Under the pieces are notes generated by a model that was given only the letters and a program-made list of their open reading frames with translations, was not told where the DNA came from and ran no database searches. From positions 1 to 42,791 of the forward strand of contig JAIRTW010000061.1 of the NCBI GenBank assembly GCA_031254875.1: a DNA stretch of 42,791 bases. Reading direction: 5' to 3'. Of the stretch, positions 1 through 23,075 are shown piece by piece; position 1 is the first letter of the stretch, and each line of letters begins with the position of its first letter. The DNA is from Candidatus Bathycorpusculum termitum (GTDB lineage: Archaea > Thermoproteota > Bathyarchaeia > Bathyarchaeales > Bathycorpusculaceae). The position numbers were made by a program, and so were the translations under genes.

Positions 1-120
1 CACAACAACAGAACCCACAACAACAGAACCCACAACAACAGAACCCACAACAACAGAACCCACAACAACAGAACCCACAACAACAGAACCCACAACAACA
101 GAACCCACAACAACAGAAAA
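1..120 (+). repeat. 15-bp tandem repeat, eight copies
   Basis: The unit cacaacaacagaacc is repeated eight times without interruption; only the last copy differs, at its 3' end. The array begins at or before the window edge, so the true copy number is unknown. The unit is five codons long and encodes TTTEP in the open frame. There are no spacers, so it is not a CRISPR array. Confidence 0.95.
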
Positions 121-277
121 ATCAAGAAGGACCTACAAAACCAAAAAGACAAAAATAGCTATAGAGGCAACTATGGCTCTGCCAGCAACAGAACCGGAAC
201 CTCAGAAGCCTAAACCTGTACGTCGAACCCGAAGGGTCCCGACAGAAAAAGAAAGCGAGGAAACAAAAAAGGAATAG
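2..277 (+). CDS. C-terminal end of a protein with Thr-Thr-Thr-Glu-Pro repeats (5' end outside window)
   Basis: A reading frame open from base 2 ends at a TAG at 275-277 and gives 91 residues. It starts with seven TTTEP pentapeptides and a TTTEK variant, then runs into a basic, proline-containing tail ending in EETKKE. No domain is visible in this part, so the function of the whole protein is unknown. Thr/Pro/Glu repeats of this kind are typical of extended, often cell-surface linkers; the GH5 enzyme at 4159 has a similar linker. The tail has no hydrophobic segment, so it is not a C-terminal membrane anchor. The gene converges on the tubulin-like gene, with 17 bases between the stop codons. 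The frame choice rests on the repeat being an exact multiple of three and on the absence of stops. Confidence 0.6.
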   Translation, partial: TTTEPTTTEPTTTEPTTTEPTTTEPTTTEPTTTEPTTTEKSRRTYKTKKTKIAIEATMALPATEPEPQKPKPVRRTRRVPTEKESEETKKE

Positions 278-294
278 AATAGTTGTCGTTCAGC

Positions 295-3021
295 TTATTT
301 TTTAGACTTTTCAGGGTTGTTACCGTTGTTAACGTTGCCTGATGGCGGCACATAACCGTTGTTTTGGTTGATTTCTTTGATGATACCTGTTGCGTACACA
401 CTGTGTTCCAGTAGGAACGAACGTGAAAGGTAACGTTCGAAGTCATTGGATTTGCTATAGAGATTCTGCATTTCGTCGAAGGCTTCCATGTCTTCGGGTT
501 TGCCGCGTCCTCCAACCACCAGAACTCGGGTTATCCACGGATCTCTTGATTCAACAACGCGCACGGTTATAGTTCTGGAAACTTCGCTTGTTACATAGCC
601 GGCCAATGCAGTGTAGACTTCCTGGGACATGTCCTCTGTCCACATCTTAGGCGGGGTGGTGATGGTCACCCAAATATAGTCGGTTTTGTATGTGGGTTTG
701 AAGCCCATAACGCTGGGCGTTTTGAAGCTACGGACAACACTTTTTATGTAATCCTTAAAGTGAGCCATATCGAGGATGTCTTTAAAGATGACTTCGCGGG
801 TTAACCCTTCTTCCTGTTCAGTTAAGATTTTAAAGATTATTTTGAGCTGTTCACTCTCAGTGAGATCAGCTGATTTTTCATAGTAACGTTTAGGTGCAGC
901 TATCTCGGCGATTTTGGATTGGTATTCACGGTGAGCATCAACAATTTTGTTGAGACGCTTGCGGTAAGGCGAAGTCAACTCGAAACGTTTAGCCAGTCGC
1001 TCGTAGAGTTTGATAGTAGCGTCAACTTGATCGAGGTTTTCCAGTGCGATGGCTTCTTCTTCGTTAACGCGTCTTAGATCCCGTTCCAATGCACGAAGCT
1101 GTTCGCGTGCGTAGCGTTTTGAGCTTAAAAATTTACGTATCTGCCGCTCCATTTTGGTTTTGTCAAATTCTTTGCGTTTCTTTATCTCCGCAATCCGCAG
1201 GGCTTCATTGTCAAAGTTGCCTCGTTTCCGCATACGTTTAGACAAGATTTCATTGATGTATGTGAGGTGTTCATCTATCATCTTGGCTTCATCTGCGGGT
1301 GTCCGCAACATAAGCTGGATGACGAGATATATTATGTCGAGTTCCTCACGGATGTCATAGAGTTCTTCGAGTTCCAGTTGACATTCGGTAAGCACCTCGT
1401 AATACCGTATGAGGGCTTCGGTTATGTAGCGTGTTTCATCGTAGAATCTAAGAATGCGGAGGGAATGCTCTGCGAGTTCTGAGATATTGACTAGGTCTTC
1501 GAGCACTTTCTTTTGGCGCAGAGTAAATATTTGGGAGCTGGGGATTAACTGGTTTAGTCGTTCGATGATATCGGCTTTGCGTTCAGAGAATTCAAGGTAG
1601 TTTTTGGTCAGTGTTGTCAGCAGGATTTCGAGGTTGTCGAGTTTTCTTGAGCCGTCTTTTTTGAGTGTGAGGTTGATGATGGCTTCTTCTATTGGGCCGG
1701 TTTTTCCCATTAGTTTGATGGTTAGGAGGTATTTCATGATGTCGTCGAGCCAGTTTTTAGTCTGAAGTTCGACACCTTTAACATGCAGGGCAAGGTCGTC
1801 TTCGAGACGGGGGTTACTGTTGATAATGGTTTTTAGTTTATCGTCGAATTGTTCTTCGTTGTAGGTGCCGGTTTTTATGAGGTAGTTTTTGAAGAGATCT
1901 TTTGCAGTGTCACTGTCGACTTTGATGACGTTTTTGATTTCGTTTAGGATGCCGAGTTTTTCTTTTCTTGATTCCTGAAGCATCGACATGCTCTCAAAAC
2001 TCAGTTTGTAGGCGGTGAGGTAGTCTTCGACGGGATACATCACTTTAACCATACTCAAGGTGTGTGCGGAATTGTTTGTTAACCCGACTTCGGTGCCTAT
2101 ACCGCCTAGGAGGTCTGCTAAGTCAAAATCCATAAGCACATAGAGCAAATCAACGACCATGTCATCCATTTCTTTTCGTGCAGATACGATGTTACCGACC
2201 TTAGAGAAGGCTGGAAGCAACGGCAGATAAACCAGTGCGTTGAGGGGGTTGCGGTATATTTCGCCGTATTCTTTGACTATGTGTTCGTTGTAGTTTTTGT
2301 TTAGTAGAAGCGAGAGTTCGTTCATGGCAACGAAAGCTGAGCAACCTTTTGCGGGTGGGTCGTCTCCGCCGCAGGGGGTGATAACAAAGGCGATCATGGG
2401 AACGCCTGAACCCATAACTTTGCGGAGGTGACGGGCGAAGTCGAAGAATATGCCGCTTCCTGTGCCGCCGCCCATGCCGTAAACCAAGACGACGGTTGGG
2501 GTGACGATGGAGGAGAGTGCCTGCTCTTTGAACGTATTGATGCAGTTTCGGATGATACCCAGCTGATAGTAGTTGAGGGCATAAATGGCTTTGGCGAGTG
2601 CGCGTCTTCGTCCGGCTCCGCCGGCCATAGGGGGAACTGCCATTGTTGACTGTAACCATGGACTGTAATCGTCGAGTTTGGAGCCTTCGCCTATTACGTA
2701 TTCGCCGTATTTTTGGTTGATGAAGTCAAACATGGCTTCGGCTGTGGGGAACTTGACGGATTCGGCGATGAGACGCCATCGTTCCCGGGGAACACCGGCT
2801 TTAATCAGTGAACGGGAGATTTGCTCGTGTGCTTCTTGGAGACTTCTAATTTCGGGGTCAGCGATGTCTATGGCTAAAAGAGAGAGACGAGTCAGGTCAT
2901 TTTCGATCAGTTCGCGGGTTTTCTTGTTGGTTAGGAAGGATTCTACGATATTGGTGCCTGCTGAGCCTAACCCGATAAGTTGAACACTATTCTGGTAGAT
3001 TCTCGTGGTATCACATCCCAA
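295..3021 (-). CDS. Tubulin/FtsZ-superfamily GTPase with long coiled-coil extension
   Basis: This 908-residue protein has the N-terminal glycine loop GLGSAGTNIV (about 17-26) and the tubulin signature GGGTGSG (184-190). A T7-like stretch DFDLAD (298-303) keeps both acidic residues of the FtsZ catalytic loop, although the first Asn is Asp. It is therefore very likely a GTP-binding, filament-forming protein. It is more than twice the length of FtsZ. Residues from about 340 to 740 are charged and helical, with a strong coiled coil near 620-720. A folded segment near 755-860 may be the displaced second tubulin domain (inference). It does not look like standard FtsZ or CetZ; the Tubulin_2-like families are the nearest idea. 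The ATG at 3021 lies 11 bases inside the upstream gene, so the two are probably translationally coupled. Confidence 0.85.
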   Translation of the reverse strand: MGCDTTRIYQNSVQLIGLGSAGTNIVESFLTNKKTRELIENDLTRLSLLAIDIADPEIRSLQEAHEQISRSLIKAGVPRERWRLIAESVKFPTAEAMFDFINQKYGEYVIGEGSKLDDYSPWLQSTMAVPPMAGGAGRRRALAKAIYALNYYQLGIIRNCINTFKEQALSSIVTPTVVLVYGMGGGTGSGIFFDFARHLRKVMGSGVPMIAFVITPCGGDDPPAKGCSAFVAMNELSLLLNKNYNEHIVKEYGEIYRNPLNALVYLPLLPAFSKVGNIVSARKEMDDMVVDLLYVLMDFDLADLLGGIGTEVGLTNNSAHTLSMVKVMYPVEDYLTAYKLSFESMSMLQESRKEKLGILNEIKNVIKVDSDTAKDLFKNYLIKTGTYNEEQFDDKLKTIINSNPRLEDDLALHVKGVELQTKNWLDDIMKYLLTIKLMGKTGPIEEAIINLTLKKDGSRKLDNLEILLTTLTKNYLEFSERKADIIERLNQLIPSSQIFTLRQKKVLEDLVNISELAEHSLRILRFYDETRYITEALIRYYEVLTECQLELEELYDIREELDIIYLVIQLMLRTPADEAKMIDEHLTYINEILSKRMRKRGNFDNEALRIAEIKKRKEFDKTKMERQIRKFLSSKRYAREQLRALERDLRRVNEEEAIALENLDQVDATIKLYERLAKRFELTSPYRKRLNKIVDAHREYQSKIAEIAAPKRYYEKSADLTESEQLKIIFKILTEQEEGLTREVIFKDILDMAHFKDYIKSVVRSFKTPSVMGFKPTYKTDYIWVTITTPPKMWTEDMSQEVYTALAGYVTSEVSRTITVRVVESRDPWITRVLVVGGRGKPEDMEAFDEMQNLYSKSNDFERYLSRSFLLEHSVYATGIIKEINQNNGYVPPSGNVNNGNNPEKSKK

Positions 3022-3961
3022 TTAAGTTTTTAAGTCGATCTTTGACTGAATCGAGGTTTGCAGACATCGCACGATCGATTTTAGATGCTCTAAGGGTTAG
3101 ACCCTCTAAATCTTTGATTTGATCTTCCACAACAAGGGTCATGTAGCTGACTTTACCGCGGATCCGCAGGAACAAAAACGCAAACAATGCAGCTACAACA
3201 GCCGCAACTATGATGAGGGGCAAAAACAGCATCTGCATCGTGGAGCCTGCGGGCTCATTAGCGACGTCTAAGCCGCGTAACAGAGCAATCGCATTTGTGA
3301 CATCTCCGCTGTCGGCTACAGCTTGAGAAGTTCTGAGGACATTTTGATAGATTTGGATAAATCCAGAGTCTACGCCGCTGGCTTTTAGCGATTCCAGCTT
3401 GGCCTCTTTTTGGGCCAAAAGAGTCAGATAATTGTTCATGTCAGCACTGGTTGCAGTAATTATGATTGTATCAAGGGGTGTGCCACCTGAGGGACCAAAG
3501 AGACTGACAGCGGTGACTACTTTTGAGGCACTACTGGTTGTGGGAACTTTGCCGTATAGTATCAACTCAAAAGTTCCTGTCACCCAATTAAACGGGGTAG
3601 ATTGCGAGTTCGGACTGAAACTAGAACCTAAATCATAGTTGCTTGTGCTGGGAACTCCCCAGTATGGACCAGATGCCGGCTTATTTAGTCCAGATGTTAA
3701 TCGGAGGTTTCCTTCGCCTGAAGCGATGACATTTACTGTGAAGGTGATTTTAACTTCGGCTCCAGGTAGAACAGCGCCTGACCCAGTGAGCTGATTGGTC
3801 GCAGCAGTGTATTGTATTAAAATCTGTCCTGTTGATATATCTTCAATTTTATAGTCTGTTATCCATTGCCCTTCTCCGGCGGCTTGGGCAAACGACATGG
3901 ATGATAAAGTTAGGGTAGTTAATAACAGAACCACGCTTAAGACTAAAACAGTTTTCTTCAT
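3011..3961 (-). CDS. Signal-peptide membrane protein coupled to the tubulin-like GTPase
   Basis: Starting at ATG 3961 gives 316 residues. This start has a GAGGAT ribosome site just upstream; in-frame ATGs at 3973 and 3997 would add 4 or 12 residues. A signal peptide ends near ...SFAQA. An outer domain of about 190 residues, rich in Thr, Ser and Gly and probably beta, is followed by a short helical stretch. One transmembrane helix (about 248-268, rich in Val, Ala and Phe) precedes a 45-residue cytoplasmic tail that looks helical and amphipathic. The last codons overlap the start of the tubulin-like gene. A single-pass protein with a helical inner tail, made from the same operon, is a good candidate for the membrane anchor of the GTPase filament (inference). 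No known family was recognised. Confidence 0.8.
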   Translation of the reverse strand: MKKTVLVLSVVLLLTTLTLSSMSFAQAAGEGQWITDYKIEDISTGQILIQYTAATNQLTGSGAVLPGAEVKITFTVNVIASGEGNLRLTSGLNKPASGPYWGVPSTSNYDLGSSFSPNSQSTPFNWVTGTFELILYGKVPTTSSASKVVTAVSLFGPSGGTPLDTIIITATSADMNNYLTLLAQKEAKLESLKASGVDSGFIQIYQNVLRTSQAVADSGDVTNAIALLRGLDVANEPAGSTMQMLFLPLIIVAAVVAALFAFLFLRIRGKVSYMTLVVEDQIKDLEGLTLRASKIDRAMSANLDSVKDRLKNLIGM

Positions 3962-4158: not shown

Positions 4159-5886
4159 TTGATCCAAGCGATAAGGAGACAAAAATTCAGGAAGAGAGAA
4201 AAAACTTTGAAAACAAACATTTCAGGAAAAAGTTTGCATACACCACGCTTTAAGCGAGTCTCTAGACCCATTGCAATCTGTATCAGTGCATTGTTTATCA
4301 TCAGCATGGTTTCGCCGCTGGCAATACAACCAGTTCAGGCTGCAACACCAGCACTCCACACCTCAGGCACGCAAATAATTGATGGCGACGGCAATGTTAT
4401 CTATCTCCGCGGCGTTGGAGTTGCAGGCTTTGTACCTAACTTGATCCTTTGGGGTCAAGGTCAAAGCGATTCATGGGGTAACCAATGGAACTACAACCCC
4501 ACACCGGCCATGGAACAAACCTTCACGGCTATGAGGGATCAATGGCACATCAACTACATCCGTGTCTTTATCTATCCTAGCTGGTATTACCGCGACAACA
4601 TTGCGCCCTCCCAGGAGGATATCAACTATGCTTCGCAGACAACCCTAATCAGCACCAAAGCATATCTGCAAACTCTCTGTGCAGAAGCAGCCAAATATGG
4701 AATCTATGTTAACATAGTGCCCTACATGCTTACGCCCTCAGCAAGCTCTTCGGGAAGAGATCCTTATGTCACACCAAATTCTGCTGGCGGTCAAGGCTTA
4801 CCGCTGTTGGGTTGGGACAGTGCAGCTCAAAAATTCCTCTCAGACGCAGGCTATACCAACAATGAACTAGGCTTCTGGCGATGGTTCTGGGCAGACATGG
4901 CAAATAACCTCAAAGACTATCCAAATGCAATCTTTGAAGCCTGGAACGAACCACAATCCGGCGCAGACAACACCCCCATACCCGCGGCATATATCCAATA
5001 TCTCCAAACAATGTATAGCGCCATCAGAGGAACCGGCTCAAACCACTTAATCATGATGCAGTGGCGCGTTGGATGGTTCCCCAACGGCTATGGCAACACC
5101 CTAAGCTGGACAAAACAAATCAGTGATGCCATCCCCGGAGCAACCAACCTAGTCTACACAACACACCTCTACTACTATGCACCAACCGACTTAACCTCAT
5201 ATTGGGCAACCGACTACAACACACTCAAAACGCAACTCCAAACCGGTATCGACAGCATGGGCGTCAACGCACCCTTAGTTATTAACGAACAAGGCTCATG
5301 TTTGACCAGCTCAAGAAACAGACAAAACGACTACACCTGGTGGCAGAATCTACTCTTAGCACAACGTGACTTAGGCATAGGTGCAGGAGCATATTATTGG
5401 CTAAGCGACGCAGGATTAGGTCCCGCTTACTCAGGAGAAACAATGCTTAGCAACAACTACTCACCCAACATAATGGGACAACACTTCATCAACGCCCACA
5501 AGACACCGAACAACCCAACATCAACAACAACTCGGTCCGCTACAACTCCATTAATACCAAACACAACTCCATCAACAATACCAAACACAATAACACAAAC
5601 AACCCAAACAGAAACACCTGATACAACAACAAACACCGACACAACAACAAACACCGATCCAGTACCGCCTAAATCACAGTCATGTTCAACTAAACACAAA
5701 AAAACCCATACACCGACAAAAACAACACAGCCAACCCAAGAACCGACAAAAACAACACAGCCAACCCAAGAACCGACAACCCTAGAAGTTAAACACCATC
5801 ATCACCATCATCACCGGTGTTCCTATGAGTCGCATTGGCAAGGACATCACGGGTCTGGGTCACGACACAGTGCCCATTCCAGGTAA
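4159..5886 (+). CDS. Secreted glycoside hydrolase family 5 (cellulase-like) with Thr/Pro linker and His-rich tail
   Basis: The catalytic domain (about 65-445) has the GH5 hallmarks: an LRGVGVAG start, IRVFIYP, the acid/base Glu264 in AWNEP, His336 in TTHLYYY and the nucleophile Glu377 in VINEQGS. It should hydrolyse beta-1,4-linked polysaccharide outside the cell; the exact substrate cannot be read. A signal peptide ends near PVQA (about 61). Residues after 450 are a Thr/Pro/Asn linker with short repeats, then a run of seven His and a His/Ser-rich end. The 5' end is uncertain: TTG 4159 has no ribosome site, while TTG 4207 follows GGAAGAGAG and still leaves a full signal peptide. The last 30 residues may come from a frameshift, because a neighbouring frame at 5797-5880 reads like a more ordinary protein tail. 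Confidence 0.85.
   Translation: MIQAIRRQKFRKREKTLKTNISGKSLHTPRFKRVSRPIAICISALFIISMVSPLAIQPVQAATPALHTSGTQIIDGDGNVIYLRGVGVAGFVPNLILWGQGQSDSWGNQWNYNPTPAMEQTFTAMRDQWHINYIRVFIYPSWYYRDNIAPSQEDINYASQTTLISTKAYLQTLCAEAAKYGIYVNIVPYMLTPSASSSGRDPYVTPNSAGGQGLPLLGWDSAAQKFLSDAGYTNNELGFWRWFWADMANNLKDYPNAIFEAWNEPQSGADNTPIPAAYIQYLQTMYSAIRGTGSNHLIMMQWRVGWFPNGYGNTLSWTKQISDAIPGATNLVYTTHLYYYAPTDLTSYWATDYNTLKTQLQTGIDSMGVNAPLVINEQGSCLTSSRNRQNDYTWWQNLLLAQRDLGIGAGAYYWLSDAGLGPAYSGETMLSNNYSPNIMGQHFINAHKTPNNPTSTTTRSATTPLIPNTTPSTIPNTITQTTQTETPDTTTNTDTTTNTDPVPPKSQSCSTKHKKTHTPTKTTQPTQEPTKTTQPTQEPTTLEVKHHHHHHHRCSYESHWQGHHGSGSRHSAHSR
5623..5780 (+). repeat. Short tandem repeats inside the GH5 linker
   Basis: An 18-bp unit encoding TTTNTD occurs twice at 5623-5658. 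A 30-bp unit encoding PTKTTQPTQE occurs twice at 5712-5771, with the start of a third copy. Both units are multiples of three, so linker length can change without breaking the frame. Confidence 0.85.
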
Positions 5887-6107: not shown

Positions 6108-7046
6108 TTGATAGTCTTGGAAATTATAAACGTGCGGTTACCCCCCAAGATGCTCTCAGACCTCAACGGACTCGCCGAAAAACATAGCTTAACACGCTCT
6201 GAAGTCCTACGTCAAGCTCTCACAATATATATGCATTTAACCGAAAATGTTGGTACCATGTTGCGTCCCATCACCTTTCAAGTTAAACCCGCCCAAATCA
6301 GCTACACTCGAAGAGGCGACGTATCCATCCTAAAAATGCCCACAGGACATGCCATTGTGGCAGGCTCCACCTCCTCGGGTGCTGTGGGACCAAAAGAACT
6401 CGATAAAGTTAAGGTGGACGGACAGGTGCTGGGTAAGTTTTTGGCACGGGTGGCATTGATGGATGTGACTGCGACGGGTGCTTTTCCGCTACTTTTGTCG
6501 TTAACACTGGGTGTGGAAAAGGATCACACCGGCACAACGATAGCAGAGGGTGTCAGCCGCGAAGCCAAAAGTATCGGACTTGACCCCAACCAGGTGCTTT
6601 TAGAAAATACCGAAGACAACTTTCAAACAGTGCAAACTGGCGCGGGCTTAACAGTTGTGGGTTTGGCAAACGAAAACGAGCTACGACTGGGAAAAACCCT
6701 TCCGGGCGATTTAATCGTGGCCGTGGGCAGACCCAAAATAGGCGATGAAGTTATCACTGCCGAAGCCAGAGGTGAAATAGCTGACCTCAAAAACGTAGCT
6801 CAGCTTTCCCAGCGCAAATATGTCCATGATATCACGGCTGTAGGTGGCTTTGGGATTGCCAGCGAAGCCAAAATGATGGCATACGGAGTGGGCAGACAAC
6901 TGAAACTTATTGAGAATCCTGGGTTAGACCTCAACAAATCGGCAGGTCCAGCCACGGTAATCTTAGCCACCATCGATAAAAAACGACTAGAAGATTTAAC
7001 GGCACTGATTCCTAAACCTATCAATGTAGTAGGAGAGATACTCTAA
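6108..7046 (+). CDS. Ribbon-helix-helix domain fused to a PurM/AIR-synthase-like domain
   Basis: Residues about 8-45 read as a CopG/NikR-type ribbon-helix-helix: NVRLPPKMLSDL, then a TRSEVLRQAL helix. From about 70 on the protein resembles PurM-superfamily ATP-binding enzymes (AIR synthase, SelD, HypE, ThiL and alpha-ribazole-kinase-like proteins). Landmarks are AGSTSSGAVGPKELDKV, RVALMDVTATGAFP and the GLTVVG strand. This could be an enzyme that binds its own operator, or a regulator that senses a metabolite through a former enzyme domain; neither can be decided here. The start is uncertain: TTG 6108 has no ribosome site, and TTG 6117 or GTG 6132 would still keep most of the DNA-binding strand. 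It precedes the thiamin block but is not under a riboswitch. Confidence 0.7.
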   Translation: MIVLEIINVRLPPKMLSDLNGLAEKHSLTRSEVLRQALTIYMHLTENVGTMLRPITFQVKPAQISYTRRGDVSILKMPTGHAIVAGSTSSGAVGPKELDKVKVDGQVLGKFLARVALMDVTATGAFPLLLSLTLGVEKDHTGTTIAEGVSREAKSIGLDPNQVLLENTEDNFQTVQTGAGLTVVGLANENELRLGKTLPGDLIVAVGRPKIGDEVITAEARGEIADLKNVAQLSQRKYVHDITAVGGFGIASEAKMMAYGVGRQLKLIENPGLDLNKSAGPATVILATIDKKRLEDLTALIPKPINVVGEIL

Positions 7047-19477: not shown

Positions 19478-20662
19478 CTATAGTGCTTTGAACGCGTCAA
19501 ACCAGCGGTTGTAGCTTGTGAGCATATCCAGCGAAACAGACGGCTTACGTTCTTCAAGGATCTGGCGGAAATCAGCCATCGTTAAAGCACGGGGTTTAGC
19601 TTCTTTATCGGTGGCTTTACCAGACTCAAAGAATTCCCCAATCAGCTTCAGCTGAGCAGATTGGCAGACGTCACGTATGTCGCTACCGCTGAAACCCTCA
19701 GATAGCCGAGCCAGTTCCGGCAGATCAACATCAGAGGCAATAGTGAGTGTCTCGGTATAGTGTTTGAGCATATTGAAGCGCGTGGCACTGTCTGCAAGGG
19801 GAACTAGGATACGCTTTTGGAATCTGCGGATAAAAGCCCAATCTAAATCCCAAGGTTTGTTGGTGGCGCCTATAATGTAGACGTGTAGTGCTTTGCCTTT
19901 GTCGACAATACCATCCATTTCTTTTAGGAACTGGTTTTTAACACGGATTTCGCCGCCGACTTCGTTGCTGTGGGTACCCATCAGTGAGTCTAATTCGTCG
20001 ACAAATACGATAGCGGGTTTGCCTTCAGTTGCTGATTTGCGGGCTGACCCAAAGAGTTTAGCCACGTTCTGCTCAGCCTCGCCCAGCCACTTTGACATAA
20101 TTGAAGCCGCATCGATTGAGTAAAAGTTAGCTTCTATCTCGGTTGCAACTGCTGCGGCCAGAAGCGTTTTGCCACATCCAGGCGGACCAAACAGCAGAAT
20201 ACCCCGCGGCCAACCAAGCGGGAACAAATCAGGACGCTGCACAGGATAAACAATAGCTTCCTTAACAGCTTTTTTGGCAACATCTAAACCGACAACCTCG
20301 GCCCAGCTGACCTTAGGCTTCTCAGTGATTACAAGTTCTTCATTGGGTTTTGATAAACCCCCACCTCCGTTCCCGTCCATGGTTGCTCCACCGCCTTCTC
20401 CGTTTTCGCTTGCCGCTTCATTCATCTCCATCGGCGAAACTGCTCCCTGAAGCACTTTAATGCGTTCTTGATAGGCGATTGCCCGCTGAACGTAAACCTT
20501 GTTTAAACCATACTCAGGGTAAAGCTGAACCAGTTGCAACAGAGTCTCTATGGCTTTCTGGTAGAGGGTTATGGCTCTGCCTCTCTGCCCCTGTTTATCT
20601 AGCCGCACCGCATCTAAAGCATAGGCTGTTGCTGTTTTTTCTAATTCGTTTGACGCACTCAT
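19478..20662 (-). CDS. cdvC: CdvC / Vps4-type AAA ATPase
   Basis: 394 residues. An N-terminal MIT three-helix domain (about 4-75) is followed by a Gly/Asn-rich linker (85-105) and a Vps4-type AAA domain. Walker A is GPPGCGKT (159-166), Walker B is IVFVDELDSL with Asp222-Glu223, the arginine-finger region is near WAFIRRFQKR, and SEGFSGSDIRDV marks the small domain. In Cdv division this ATPase pulls apart ESCRT-III filaments at the division neck; its MIT domain binds Pro-rich motifs in CdvB proteins. It is last in the cdv operon, 24 bases after CdvB, with an AAAGGAG site. Confidence 0.95.
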   Translation of the reverse strand: MSASNELEKTATAYALDAVRLDKQGQRGRAITLYQKAIETLLQLVQLYPEYGLNKVYVQRAIAYQERIKVLQGAVSPMEMNEAASENGEGGGATMDGNGGGGLSKPNEELVITEKPKVSWAEVVGLDVAKKAVKEAIVYPVQRPDLFPLGWPRGILLFGPPGCGKTLLAAAVATEIEANFYSIDAASIMSKWLGEAEQNVAKLFGSARKSATEGKPAIVFVDELDSLMGTHSNEVGGEIRVKNQFLKEMDGIVDKGKALHVYIIGATNKPWDLDWAFIRRFQKRILVPLADSATRFNMLKHYTETLTIASDVDLPELARLSEGFSGSDIRDVCQSAQLKLIGEFFESGKATDKEAKPRALTMADFRQILEERKPSVSLDMLTSYNRWFDAFKAL

Positions 20663-20686
20663 CTTGTGTTTGCTTCTCCTTTCCCA

Positions 20687-21613
20687 CTATTCAGGTGAAC
20701 GTAATTCTATCTTGATTTTACCCTTAGACCCCAAATTTTCCAAGGCCCGCTCGATTTCCTCGTTGGAGGTTTGCAATTCCGATGAGCATCGGCCTAAATC
20801 GATTTCCCCGTTAGTTTTGCGAACATACTCCAAGAGTATTTCTTCGAGGTCGGGTAAGGTTTTTTCAACTTTAACGGAGAATTCCTTAATCTCTGATTTT
20901 TTGTATGAGAACAGCGTTTTTTCAGGATCAAAACCGGACTGCTCTATAGTTTTCTGCCCAAACACCTGTGAAGAACTCGCAGTTAATGCAACCATCTCGC
21001 GTATGGGTGCCTGGGGAATTTTTTGTACCTGAGGAGCTTTTTCTTTAAGTGGAGCAACCACCGGCGGTTCAGGAAGTGATTCAGAGAGCGTTTGCTCCAT
21101 GAAGCAGGAAACTTCTTTTAGAATTTCTTCGCCGGCTTCGGTTTTTCTGCCTACAGGGACCAGATTCTCATCAGCGTTCAGTTTGGTCTGCTGGAGGGTA
21201 TCCTGTATGGCTGAGTTAACGTTATTTAATTCTGTGCTGACATCAGGCAGCACTTGGAATAATTCTTGGGAAACATTTTGAAGTAACCGCAATGCGGGTT
21301 TGAGGTCGGCAACTATGTCACCGAGTTCTTTGATGGTTTCAAGGCGTAGGATGACACGTTCAATGGCTAATTGGACGTTGTAGAGAAATTTTACGAGTTT
21401 GCGGACTTCTGCAATTTCAGTAGCGCACATCGCCGCTTTTTCTTTGTTATTTTTCTTGAGGGCGCCCATGCAGGTTTCAAAAAGAATACGGTCCCGCTCT
21501 TTTAGGCGGAAACTGGCCTGCTCCAGCTTGTTCTGCTGGGTTTTTAATGTATAAATAGATTTGTTAGCGACTTCACGTACGGGGGGAGGGGCTTGGTTTG
21601 TAAAGCTTTTCAT
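20687..21613 (-). CDS. cdvB: CdvB: ESCRT-III protein with C-terminal winged helix
   Basis: 308 residues. The ESCRT-III (Snf7-like) helical core covers about 15-170. A Pro-rich stretch contains LPEPPVVAP (180-188) and is a likely MIT-interacting motif for CdvC. A C-terminal winged helix (about 255-308, LEEILLEYVRKTNGEIDL...) is the part that recruits CdvB to CdvA in studied species. It should polymerise at the membrane during division. ATG 21613 follows GAGGGA. The spacer is 39 bases from cdvA and 24 bases to cdvC. The linker between core and winged helix is long and rich in Pro, Ala and Ser. Confidence 0.9.
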   Translation of the reverse strand: MKSFTNQAPPPVREVANKSIYTLKTQQNKLEQASFRLKERDRILFETCMGALKKNNKEKAAMCATEIAEVRKLVKFLYNVQLAIERVILRLETIKELGDIVADLKPALRLLQNVSQELFQVLPDVSTELNNVNSAIQDTLQQTKLNADENLVPVGRKTEAGEEILKEVSCFMEQTLSESLPEPPVVAPLKEKAPQVQKIPQAPIREMVALTASSSQVFGQKTIEQSGFDPEKTLFSYKKSEIKEFSVKVEKTLPDLEEILLEYVRKTNGEIDLGRCSSELQTSNEEIERALENLGSKGKIKIELRSPE

Positions 21614-21652
21614 GTTTGTCCCTCGCGCTCCGACGTTTCGCCGCGTTTATTC

Positions 21653-22399
21653 TTAGATGCCTGTTTTGCCGATTTCTTTCACGTAGACAACAACTGGAGG
21701 TTCAGGCAACTTAGTGGCAGTGTTTGTAACTGTTTCAGCATAGACTTTGTTGTTGATGGGCTGCTTGGGTGGAGGAGGGGGCATTTGAGGAGTTTGAGAT
21801 TGATCGCCTAAGAGTACGCTGGAGAGTTTGCTCTTGGTGAGTTCATAGTCGGTTTTCTCTGAAGTTGCACGACGCAGGGTTTCCTGCAACAGATTGAAAG
21901 CAGTTTTATAGCTTTCCTCGTCGACTTGGCCGATTTCATGCTCGATTTCGAGGCTGGCTATCGCATAACCGAGCGAGGTGATTTCTTCGTGGCACCGCTC
22001 AATTTCTATAGCGGATTCATCGATAATAACTTGGGCTTCTTTTTTAAGTTGAGTCAGTACATTTTCGAAGCTAGCGTGAAGTTCCTGGTAAATGTCGGGA
22101 GCGATTTTCTTTTTATCTACCAAATCTTTTAGAGCTTCATCTTTGCGCCATATCAACGGAATTTGATCGCAGAGCGTACCTGCCTGTGATTTGACTTTTG
22201 AGACAAAAGTGATTTCGGCACCGTTGAATCGTAAGCTTTCCATGGGCTGCTTTTGGAATTGTCCATCACTAAACTCGATATATACAGCCTCAAATTTACC
22301 GTTGGGCGTTAATGCAAAAGAGGCAACTTTGCCGATTGTGCGTCCGTATTCGTTCTTGATGGGTTTACCGATAGAAAGAAAAAGATTGGAGTTAGACAT
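21653..22399 (-). CDS. cdvA: CdvA: PRC-barrel/coiled-coil division protein
   Basis: 248 residues. A PRC-barrel-like beta domain (about 5-70, LFLSIGKPIKNEYGRTIGKV) is followed by a long coiled coil (about 85-195), a polyproline stretch (207-211) and a C-terminal peptide. CdvA binds DNA and membrane and starts the division ring by recruiting CdvB. The last 18 residues begin LPEPPVVVYVK, the same core as in CdvB next door. This is unusual because CdvA normally contacts the CdvB winged helix through its tail. An AGGAGGAG site precedes ATG 22399. The gene lies between the two ESCRT-III genes. Confidence 0.85.
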   Translation of the reverse strand: MSNSNLFLSIGKPIKNEYGRTIGKVASFALTPNGKFEAVYIEFSDGQFQKQPMESLRFNGAEITFVSKVKSQAGTLCDQIPLIWRKDEALKDLVDKKKIAPDIYQELHASFENVLTQLKKEAQVIIDESAIEIERCHEEITSLGYAIASLEIEHEIGQVDEESYKTAFNLLQETLRRATSEKTDYELTKSKLSSVLLGDQSQTPQMPPPPPKQPINNKVYAETVTNTATKLPEPPVVVYVKEIGKTGI

Positions 22400-22418
22400 T
22401 TGTTTTTTCTCCTCCTAT

Positions 22419-23075
22419 TTAGAATGTTTTATCTGCTTGTGAAACTGGGGAAGTTGGCATTCCTGGTGGCAGATCGGGGAATTTGTCCTTTATCTTTTGT
22501 TCGGCAACAGTCGCTGCTTCAACTAAGATCTTTGATGCATCTTCGTTGACTGCATCGAAATTAAGTGTCATACCGCTACCTTGGCCTGCTTCAATCATGA
22601 TTCCACTGAGCATATTACCGATTTCGCCAAGTTCGTTTTCTGCTTCTGGAAATACACTGCCTAATCCGGAACGAACTGAGCGCAGTACCCCAACGGCTGG
22701 ACCGAGTGTGGAAACTACGTCGCCTAATTCGGATACTGTCCTTAAGCGTAATGTGATTTGTTCAAGTGCAAGTTTTGCATTCATAATTAATTTAGACATT
22801 TTTCTAACTTCGGCAAGTTCATTGGCAAAGACGTTGGCGCGTGCACTATCATGTTTGGTGTACGCATCGACGATTTTAGAAAAAATAGCTTTGTCTCTTT
22901 GACTGAACCGGTCGGTTGCTTGATCGAGTTTTTGAACTTGAAGTTCAATACGCCTGACGGCAAAGTCAAGACGTGGTTTGAGCGGTCCCGGCGGTTTAAC
23001 AGCGTCTTTGATGCGATTTGTGAAGGGTTCATCGTCCCGTTTACTTTCCCACTTTTTAGCGAATCTTTCTGACAA
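22419..23075 (-). CDS. ESCRT-III paralogue without winged helix (CdvB1/B2-like)
   Basis: 218 residues from a TTG start that follows a GAGGT site. The ESCRT-III core (about 30-165) closely matches CdvB in the LAEVRKM...LITLRLRTVSELGDVV region. The winged helix is missing and the protein ends soon after FPDLPPGMP (199-207), a possible MIT-interacting motif for CdvC. Such short paralogues drive the constriction stage in Sulfolobales. It is the first gene of the operon; TATA-like sequences on this strand lie near 23113-23122 and 23146-23170. It ends 19 bases before cdvA. Confidence 0.85.
   Translation of the reverse strand: MSERFAKKWESKRDDEPFTNRIKDAVKPPGPLKPRLDFAVRRIELQVQKLDQATDRFSQRDKAIFSKIVDAYTKHDSARANVFANELAEVRKMSKLIMNAKLALEQITLRLRTVSELGDVVSTLGPAVGVLRSVRSGLGSVFPEAENELGEIGNMLSGIMIEAGQGSGMTLNFDAVNEDASKILVEAATVAEQKIKDKFPDLPPGMPTSPVSQADKTF

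Follow-up and report, generated by a model that had tools for sequence, protein, structure and literature searches.

The stretch of DNA analysed here, referred to as the window, is a 42,791-nucleotide contig (C109) of the 2.3 Mb genome of Candidatus Bathycorpusculum termitum, and its left end carries two adjacent minus-strand genes facing the end of a third. The first, c0 (295..3006, minus strand), encodes a GTPase of the FtsZl1/Tubulin_2 family, and the second, c1 (3011..3961, minus strand), encodes a 316-residue single-pass membrane partner that lies directly upstream of c0 wherever the context is intact. On the plus strand, positions 2..277 encode the C-terminal tail of c2, a predicted second tubulin-fold protein; the remainder of c2 lies beyond the window on another contig of the same genome (G000:C64, 5145-6449), followed by c3 (G000:C64, 2681-5080), a divergent gene for a polytopic membrane protein. 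Among public genomes, the close relatives of this one are Bathyarchaeota, Candidatus Bathycorpusculum included. The label n10 is used for a gene that lies behind c3 at some loci and is discussed at the end.

The c0 frame has 908 open codons and ends at 295. Its initial assignment to the tubulin/FtsZ family as a protein with GGGTGSG was upheld by the recognition of three characteristic loops: T1 (GLGSAGTN, residues 12-19; 2950..2973, minus strand), T4 (GGGTGSG, residues 179-185; 2452..2472, minus strand) and a T7-type loop, DFDLAD (2113..2130, minus strand), up to which a profile alignment to FtsZ extends from T4. Across 22 aligned relatives, T1 always reads GLG[SG]AGTN, T4 is identical and T7 conforms to DFD[LM][AS]D, so that both catalytic-loop acids noted in the preliminary description are invariant. 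Against Pfam Tubulin_2, c0 scores 51.4 bits (curated cut-off 27) and its relatives 43-71 bits; against Pfam Tubulin it scores 32.8 bits (cut-off 33), and against the canonical FtsZ equivalog TIGR00065 only 11.8 bits of the 295 needed. By its sequence, c0 is a member of the known FtsZl1 (FtsZ-like 1) family, Pfam PF13809 Tubulin_2, described by Makarova and Koonin in 2010 (PMC2875224). Weak c0 matches in two further genomes, G040 and G053, turned out to be glycine-rich proteins of another family and were discarded as relatives. In one complete-looking genome, the c0 homologue is split between two overlapping frames (L239, 8514-11170), reflecting a pseudogene, an error or a frameshift.

The order of domains in c0, an N-terminal tubulin-like domain followed by a coiled coil and a mixed C-terminal region, matches the published architecture of FtsZl1, which comprises an FtsZ-like domain, a coiled coil and a mostly helical C-terminus (PMC2875224); the two share the GGGTGSG motif in the N-terminal domain, the extended coiled coil and the mostly helical character of the C-terminal region. 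The long coiled coil reported earlier was recovered as a helical stretch in the AlphaFold model (approximately residues 326-703; 898..2031, minus strand). Structure prediction of c0 alone, which the preliminary description had proposed as a check, succeeded for these helices (mostly pLDDT >85) but not for the GTPase domain, which is poorly modelled (mean pLDDT 66 for the whole protein); a structure search with the model placed TubZ and CetZ2 among the top matches with probability 1.00 but E values of 0.04-0.06, and the tubulin matches are accordingly weak.

Whether FtsZl1 proteins polymerise bears directly on how c0 should be read. In FtsZl1, Makarova and Koonin were unable to recognise the elements that follow H5 (T6-H7), and they allowed that it might form no filaments (PMC2875224), and profile comparison found no similarity between the C-terminal domain of c0 and that of FtsZ, leading us to reject the idea that the former is a displaced copy of the latter. 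Both points favour a reading in which c0 would be a membrane-bound GTP switch that forms no filaments, its coiled coil and C-terminal domain building a static scaffold or signalling complex with c1, c2 and c3. Against this reading, the T7 acids are recognisable in c0, unlike in FtsZl1 as published, and are invariant in the clade, and the alignment of the c0 and FtsZ profiles spans T4 to T7, as polymerisation-coupled hydrolysis needs. The recognisable T7 bears on the likely capacity of c0 for GTP hydrolysis upon assembly, and we consider a filament-free switch possible but rather doubtful.

The preliminary description had c0 and c1 overlapping by 11 bases. This overlap rests on a TTG start at 3021, whereas use of a conserved ACG leaves a gap of 4 bases instead. 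In most relatives, the conserved protein follows the last in-frame stop at a distance of just 1-4 codons, with no ATG, GTG or TTG among them. The codon preceding the conserved R/K-I-Y-Q-N-S is ACG in 20 of the 22 clade genomes, ATG in one and TTG in one, while sister lineages of the clade begin with ATG or TTG. ACG makes up only 8% of the Thr codons of c0 clade genes; around the start codon, spacing and flanking bases are variable and the third position is constant. Because the relatives lack ATG, GTG or TTG upstream, and because ACG is the common codon where two relatives have ATG or TTG, c0 most likely starts at ACG 3004..3006 (minus strand), yielding a protein of 903 residues. With this start, 4 bases separate the c1 stop codon from c0, and the overlap is probably an artefact of start choice. 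The c1 stop codon sits within a conserved GGGATGTGAT, which could serve as a ribosome-binding site. A literature search found no archaeal precedent for ACG initiation; this putative ACG initiation codon of a long protein is conserved across about 20 archaeal species.

The description of c1 as a single-pass protein with an outer domain and an inner tail proved accurate. A signal-peptide-like N-terminus precedes the outer domain, one transmembrane helix was identified by a hydropathy scan (3173..3229, minus strand), and the protein ends in a tail of some 52 cytosolic residues (VVEDQIKDLEGLTLRASKIDR...KDRLKNLIGM; 3014..3172, minus strand). Mean pairwise identity among 28 sequences rises from 36% in the outer domain to 46% in the helix and 60% in the tail, making the cytosolic tail the best-conserved part of the protein, as expected of a tail that would recruit or bind a partner, presumably c0. 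We regard c1 as probably the membrane anchor of c0, and c2 or c3 could equally be the ligand of its tail.

To define the extent of the module, the distribution of the four genes was determined in 61 genomes, where c0 was found in 18, c1 in 16, c2 in 18 and c3 in 19. All four belong to the same 19 genomes, every missing piece falling at a contig end; in the two genomes with c0 and without c1, c0 itself is cut at the contig end. Co-location of c0 and c1 homologues had been named beforehand as the test of their pairing, and all 16 genomes with c1 have an adjacent c0. Class-wide, c0-type Tubulin_2 proteins and c2 occur in the same two families (f1 and f27), and the four-gene co-occurrence extends to most carriers. 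Named Bathyarchaeota with c0 down to about 48% identity retain the order c1-c0 with convergent c2 and divergent c3 amid changing flanks. Throughout Bathyarchaeia, and at four distant Thermoproteota loci, c1 lies directly upstream of c0 where the contig allows. At the latter, the genes are read in one direction as a single operon, c1-c0-c3-c2, with homology established by hmmsearch for c1 (E 5e-23 or better) and by profile comparison for c2 (98%, E 1.8e-13) and c3 (99.6%, E 1.4e-23). In G251 (L246), c1 and c3 are present and c2, not found by sequence alone (E 77), is assigned by position and group profile only. A search for a defence or viral origin of the locus was negative: neither PADLOC nor PHROG gave a match, and viral contigs contained no relative.

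These results bear on the earlier proposal of a two-gene module, in which anchor and filament would form a strict pair and c2 and c3 would be chance neighbours. The c1-c0 pair is indeed the tightest and most constant, and c1, c2 and c3 are all missing from the surroundings of one close c0 homologue (G211, L244), showing that c0 can exist without them. However, c2 and c3 occur in the same genomes, keep their positions while other flanks change, and share one operon with c1-c0 at the distant loci. The module is therefore not a two-gene one, because the polytopic c3 and the degenerate tubulin paralogue c2 also belong to it; the strict pair is largely refuted already, and we give it hardly any credence.

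The window holds only the tail of c2, consisting of TTTEP repeats and a basic end, because the assembly broke in a tandem repeat that also ends contig C64. The 15-base unit encoding TTTEP occupies window positions 1-115 and recurs at the end of G000:C64, where the terminal repeat CACAACAACAGAACC is the repeat that opens the window. The assignment of c2 to the tubulins rests on hmmsearch, AlphaFold and Foldseek. A c2 profile built from 18 sequences and searched against the PDB returned tubulin/FtsZ chains as 38 of 40 matches (best E 1.8e-6). The AlphaFold model of c2 (pLDDT 87.9) has CetZ as its best solved match in Foldseek (E 3.8e-16, about 370 columns), with TubZ, FtsZ and tubulins next, the matches covering almost the full length of the chain. 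Pfam Tubulin falls below cut-off in nine of 12 c2 members and the Pfam CetZ_C domain has no match in c2; comparison of the c2 and c0 profiles from 13-16 close sequences returned nothing, and wider hhalign comparisons with FtsZ and c0 gave weak matches. We therefore assign c2, by predicted fold and profile matches, to the tubulin superfamily, as a second member that had gone unannotated and unrecognised.

The nucleotide-binding loops of c2 are degenerate. In all 25 members the T7 acids are missing and both the glycine-rich T1 and the GGGTGSG T4 are lost, T1 being replaced by GEYPIK or GQY and T4 by DGVGSA/EGVTAG. The natural reading is that c2 is a pseudo-GTPase, apparently dead as a GTPase. 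Although CetZ is its best structural match, c2 differs from CetZ in lacking both the nucleotide-binding motifs and CetZ_C.

The fourth protein, c3, is polytopic, with a helical domain of roughly 440 residues on the cytosolic side. With two of the four proteins embedded in the membrane and c1 bearing an outer domain, c3 and c1 might instead make up an export or sensing apparatus in the membrane that c0 energises or gates, and transport was proposed for FtsZl1 by a reviewer of the 2010 paper (PMC2875224). We think such a transport or secretion complex unlikely, given that c3 has no match to a transporter family and that no conserved substrate or enzyme gene adjoins the module outside the close genus. 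Within the genus, the pair is neighboured by a secreted GH5 cellulase-like protein whose Thr/Pro-rich tail ends in a run of His (4168-5886, plus strand) and by a ribbon-helix-helix protein fused to an AIR-synthase-like domain (6108-7046, plus strand), the latter strongly conserved beside the pair. Both genes were considered as module members and left out, since their conservation is confined to the close genus.

The scarcity of canonical FtsZ raised the question of whether the module replaces FtsZ in cell division. A canonical FtsZ match is missing from the genome studied here and from most of the genus, in module carriers and non-carriers alike. Such a replacement would account for the many genus carriers without FtsZ, but about 12 relatives have neither FtsZ nor the module, eight of them more than 90% complete, and four genomes have both; FtsZ is present in 4 of 18 carriers and 2 of 14 non-carriers within the genus, revealing no association. 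Moreover, Snf7/CdvB-like genes occur in 59 of 61 genomes, and the window itself contains a Cdv-type cluster (19478-23075, minus strand) encoding a Vps4/CdvC-like AAA ATPase, a CdvB-like, a CdvA-like and a second CdvB-like protein, named by Snf7 matches and, for the CdvA-like and Vps4-like proteins, by sequence inspection. Because FtsZ is missing with or without the module, Snf7 is nearly universal and a Cdv cluster is present in the window, the module appears to be accessory; the best explanation is that the core division machine here is of the Cdv/ESCRT-III type and separate from the module. On the distribution of the module, FtsZ and Snf7, we rejected replacement of FtsZ as very improbable. 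A separate SepF match is also present in the genome studied here, and nearly the whole genus retains SepF, though most of its genomes are without a canonical FtsZ match.

Several known systems offer points of comparison. FtsZl1 was already predicted in 2010 to act at membranes, and membrane or cell-shape remodelling was proposed (PMC2875224); like c0, its members have membrane-protein neighbours and a patchy distribution. The published neighbours of FtsZl1 are vWA proteins, protein kinases, a P-loop GTPase and OmpA proteins, whereas those of c0 are a single-pass anchor, a polytopic protein and a second tubulin-fold protein, a comparison made with the named contexts of the paper, which also lists unnamed associated families (A1-A2, B1-B9). 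No vWA protein, protein kinase or P-loop GTPase, which are frequent but not universal around FtsZl1, was found among the conserved neighbours of the module. Like FtsZ with SepF or FtsA, the module would have a tubulin-family GTPase served by a membrane adaptor; the difference is that c1, which is unrelated to SepF, is integral to the membrane and its gene accompanies that of the GTPase. Two tubulin-superfamily proteins also occur together in Asgard AtubA/AtubB and bacterial BtubA/B, and in AtubAB the interface joining the two subunits is GTPase-defective (PMC13394414). In those pairs, each subunit binds GTP and is closely akin to eukaryotic tubulin, whereas here one is a coiled-coil FtsZl1 protein and the other lacks the nucleotide loops, so the parallel is drawn by analogy only.

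Taken with about even confidence, our favoured reading is that the locus encodes a variant of the archaeal FtsZl1 system, a tubulin-family GTPase scaffold, tethered to the membrane and built from at least four proteins, that would serve envelope or cell-shape remodelling and not core division. In this model, the motifs of c0 suggest GTP binding and hydrolysis, with assembly by way of its tubulin-like domain and the coiled coil acting as a spacer or cross-linker. Strict adjacency and tail conservation point to c1, spanning the membrane once, as the protein whose conserved inner helix would recruit c0. Without nucleotide loops and T7 acids, c2, whose fold is predicted, most likely caps c0 or co-assembles as an inert partner, and hydrolysis would be excluded at the c0-c2 interface; c3 would provide a second membrane attachment or an output. 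The cell may thus build a two-tubulin membrane cytoskeleton apart from its division machinery. A bolder proposal, which we advance only tentatively, is a two-tubulin heteropolymer, ancient in TACK archaea and evolved independently of alpha/beta tubulin, in which an active FtsZl1 would alternate with, or be capped by, an obligate nucleotide-free tubulin subunit, with two dedicated membrane proteins holding the polymer to the membrane.

In the open-access literature, we found no biochemistry for any FtsZl1 protein, no functional work on the family after 2010, no role or fixed set of partners assigned to it since then, and no work on the four-gene set. Polymerisation of FtsZl1 is an open published question, and c0 with its conserved partners makes up a defined group of four proteins for reconstitution. 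If c2 is indeed a nucleotide-dead tubulin next to an active one, the pair would offer a prokaryotic counterpart to the hydrolysis-defective interfaces found in alpha/beta tubulin and Asgard AtubAB. The suggestion that the fifth operon gene of the distant loci corresponds to the PH-like n10 was dropped, homology being unsupported. At about 10 loci, exemplified by L148 (16170-17087), a fifth gene lies behind c3 and encodes a protein with a PH-like N-terminal region and a helical C-terminus.
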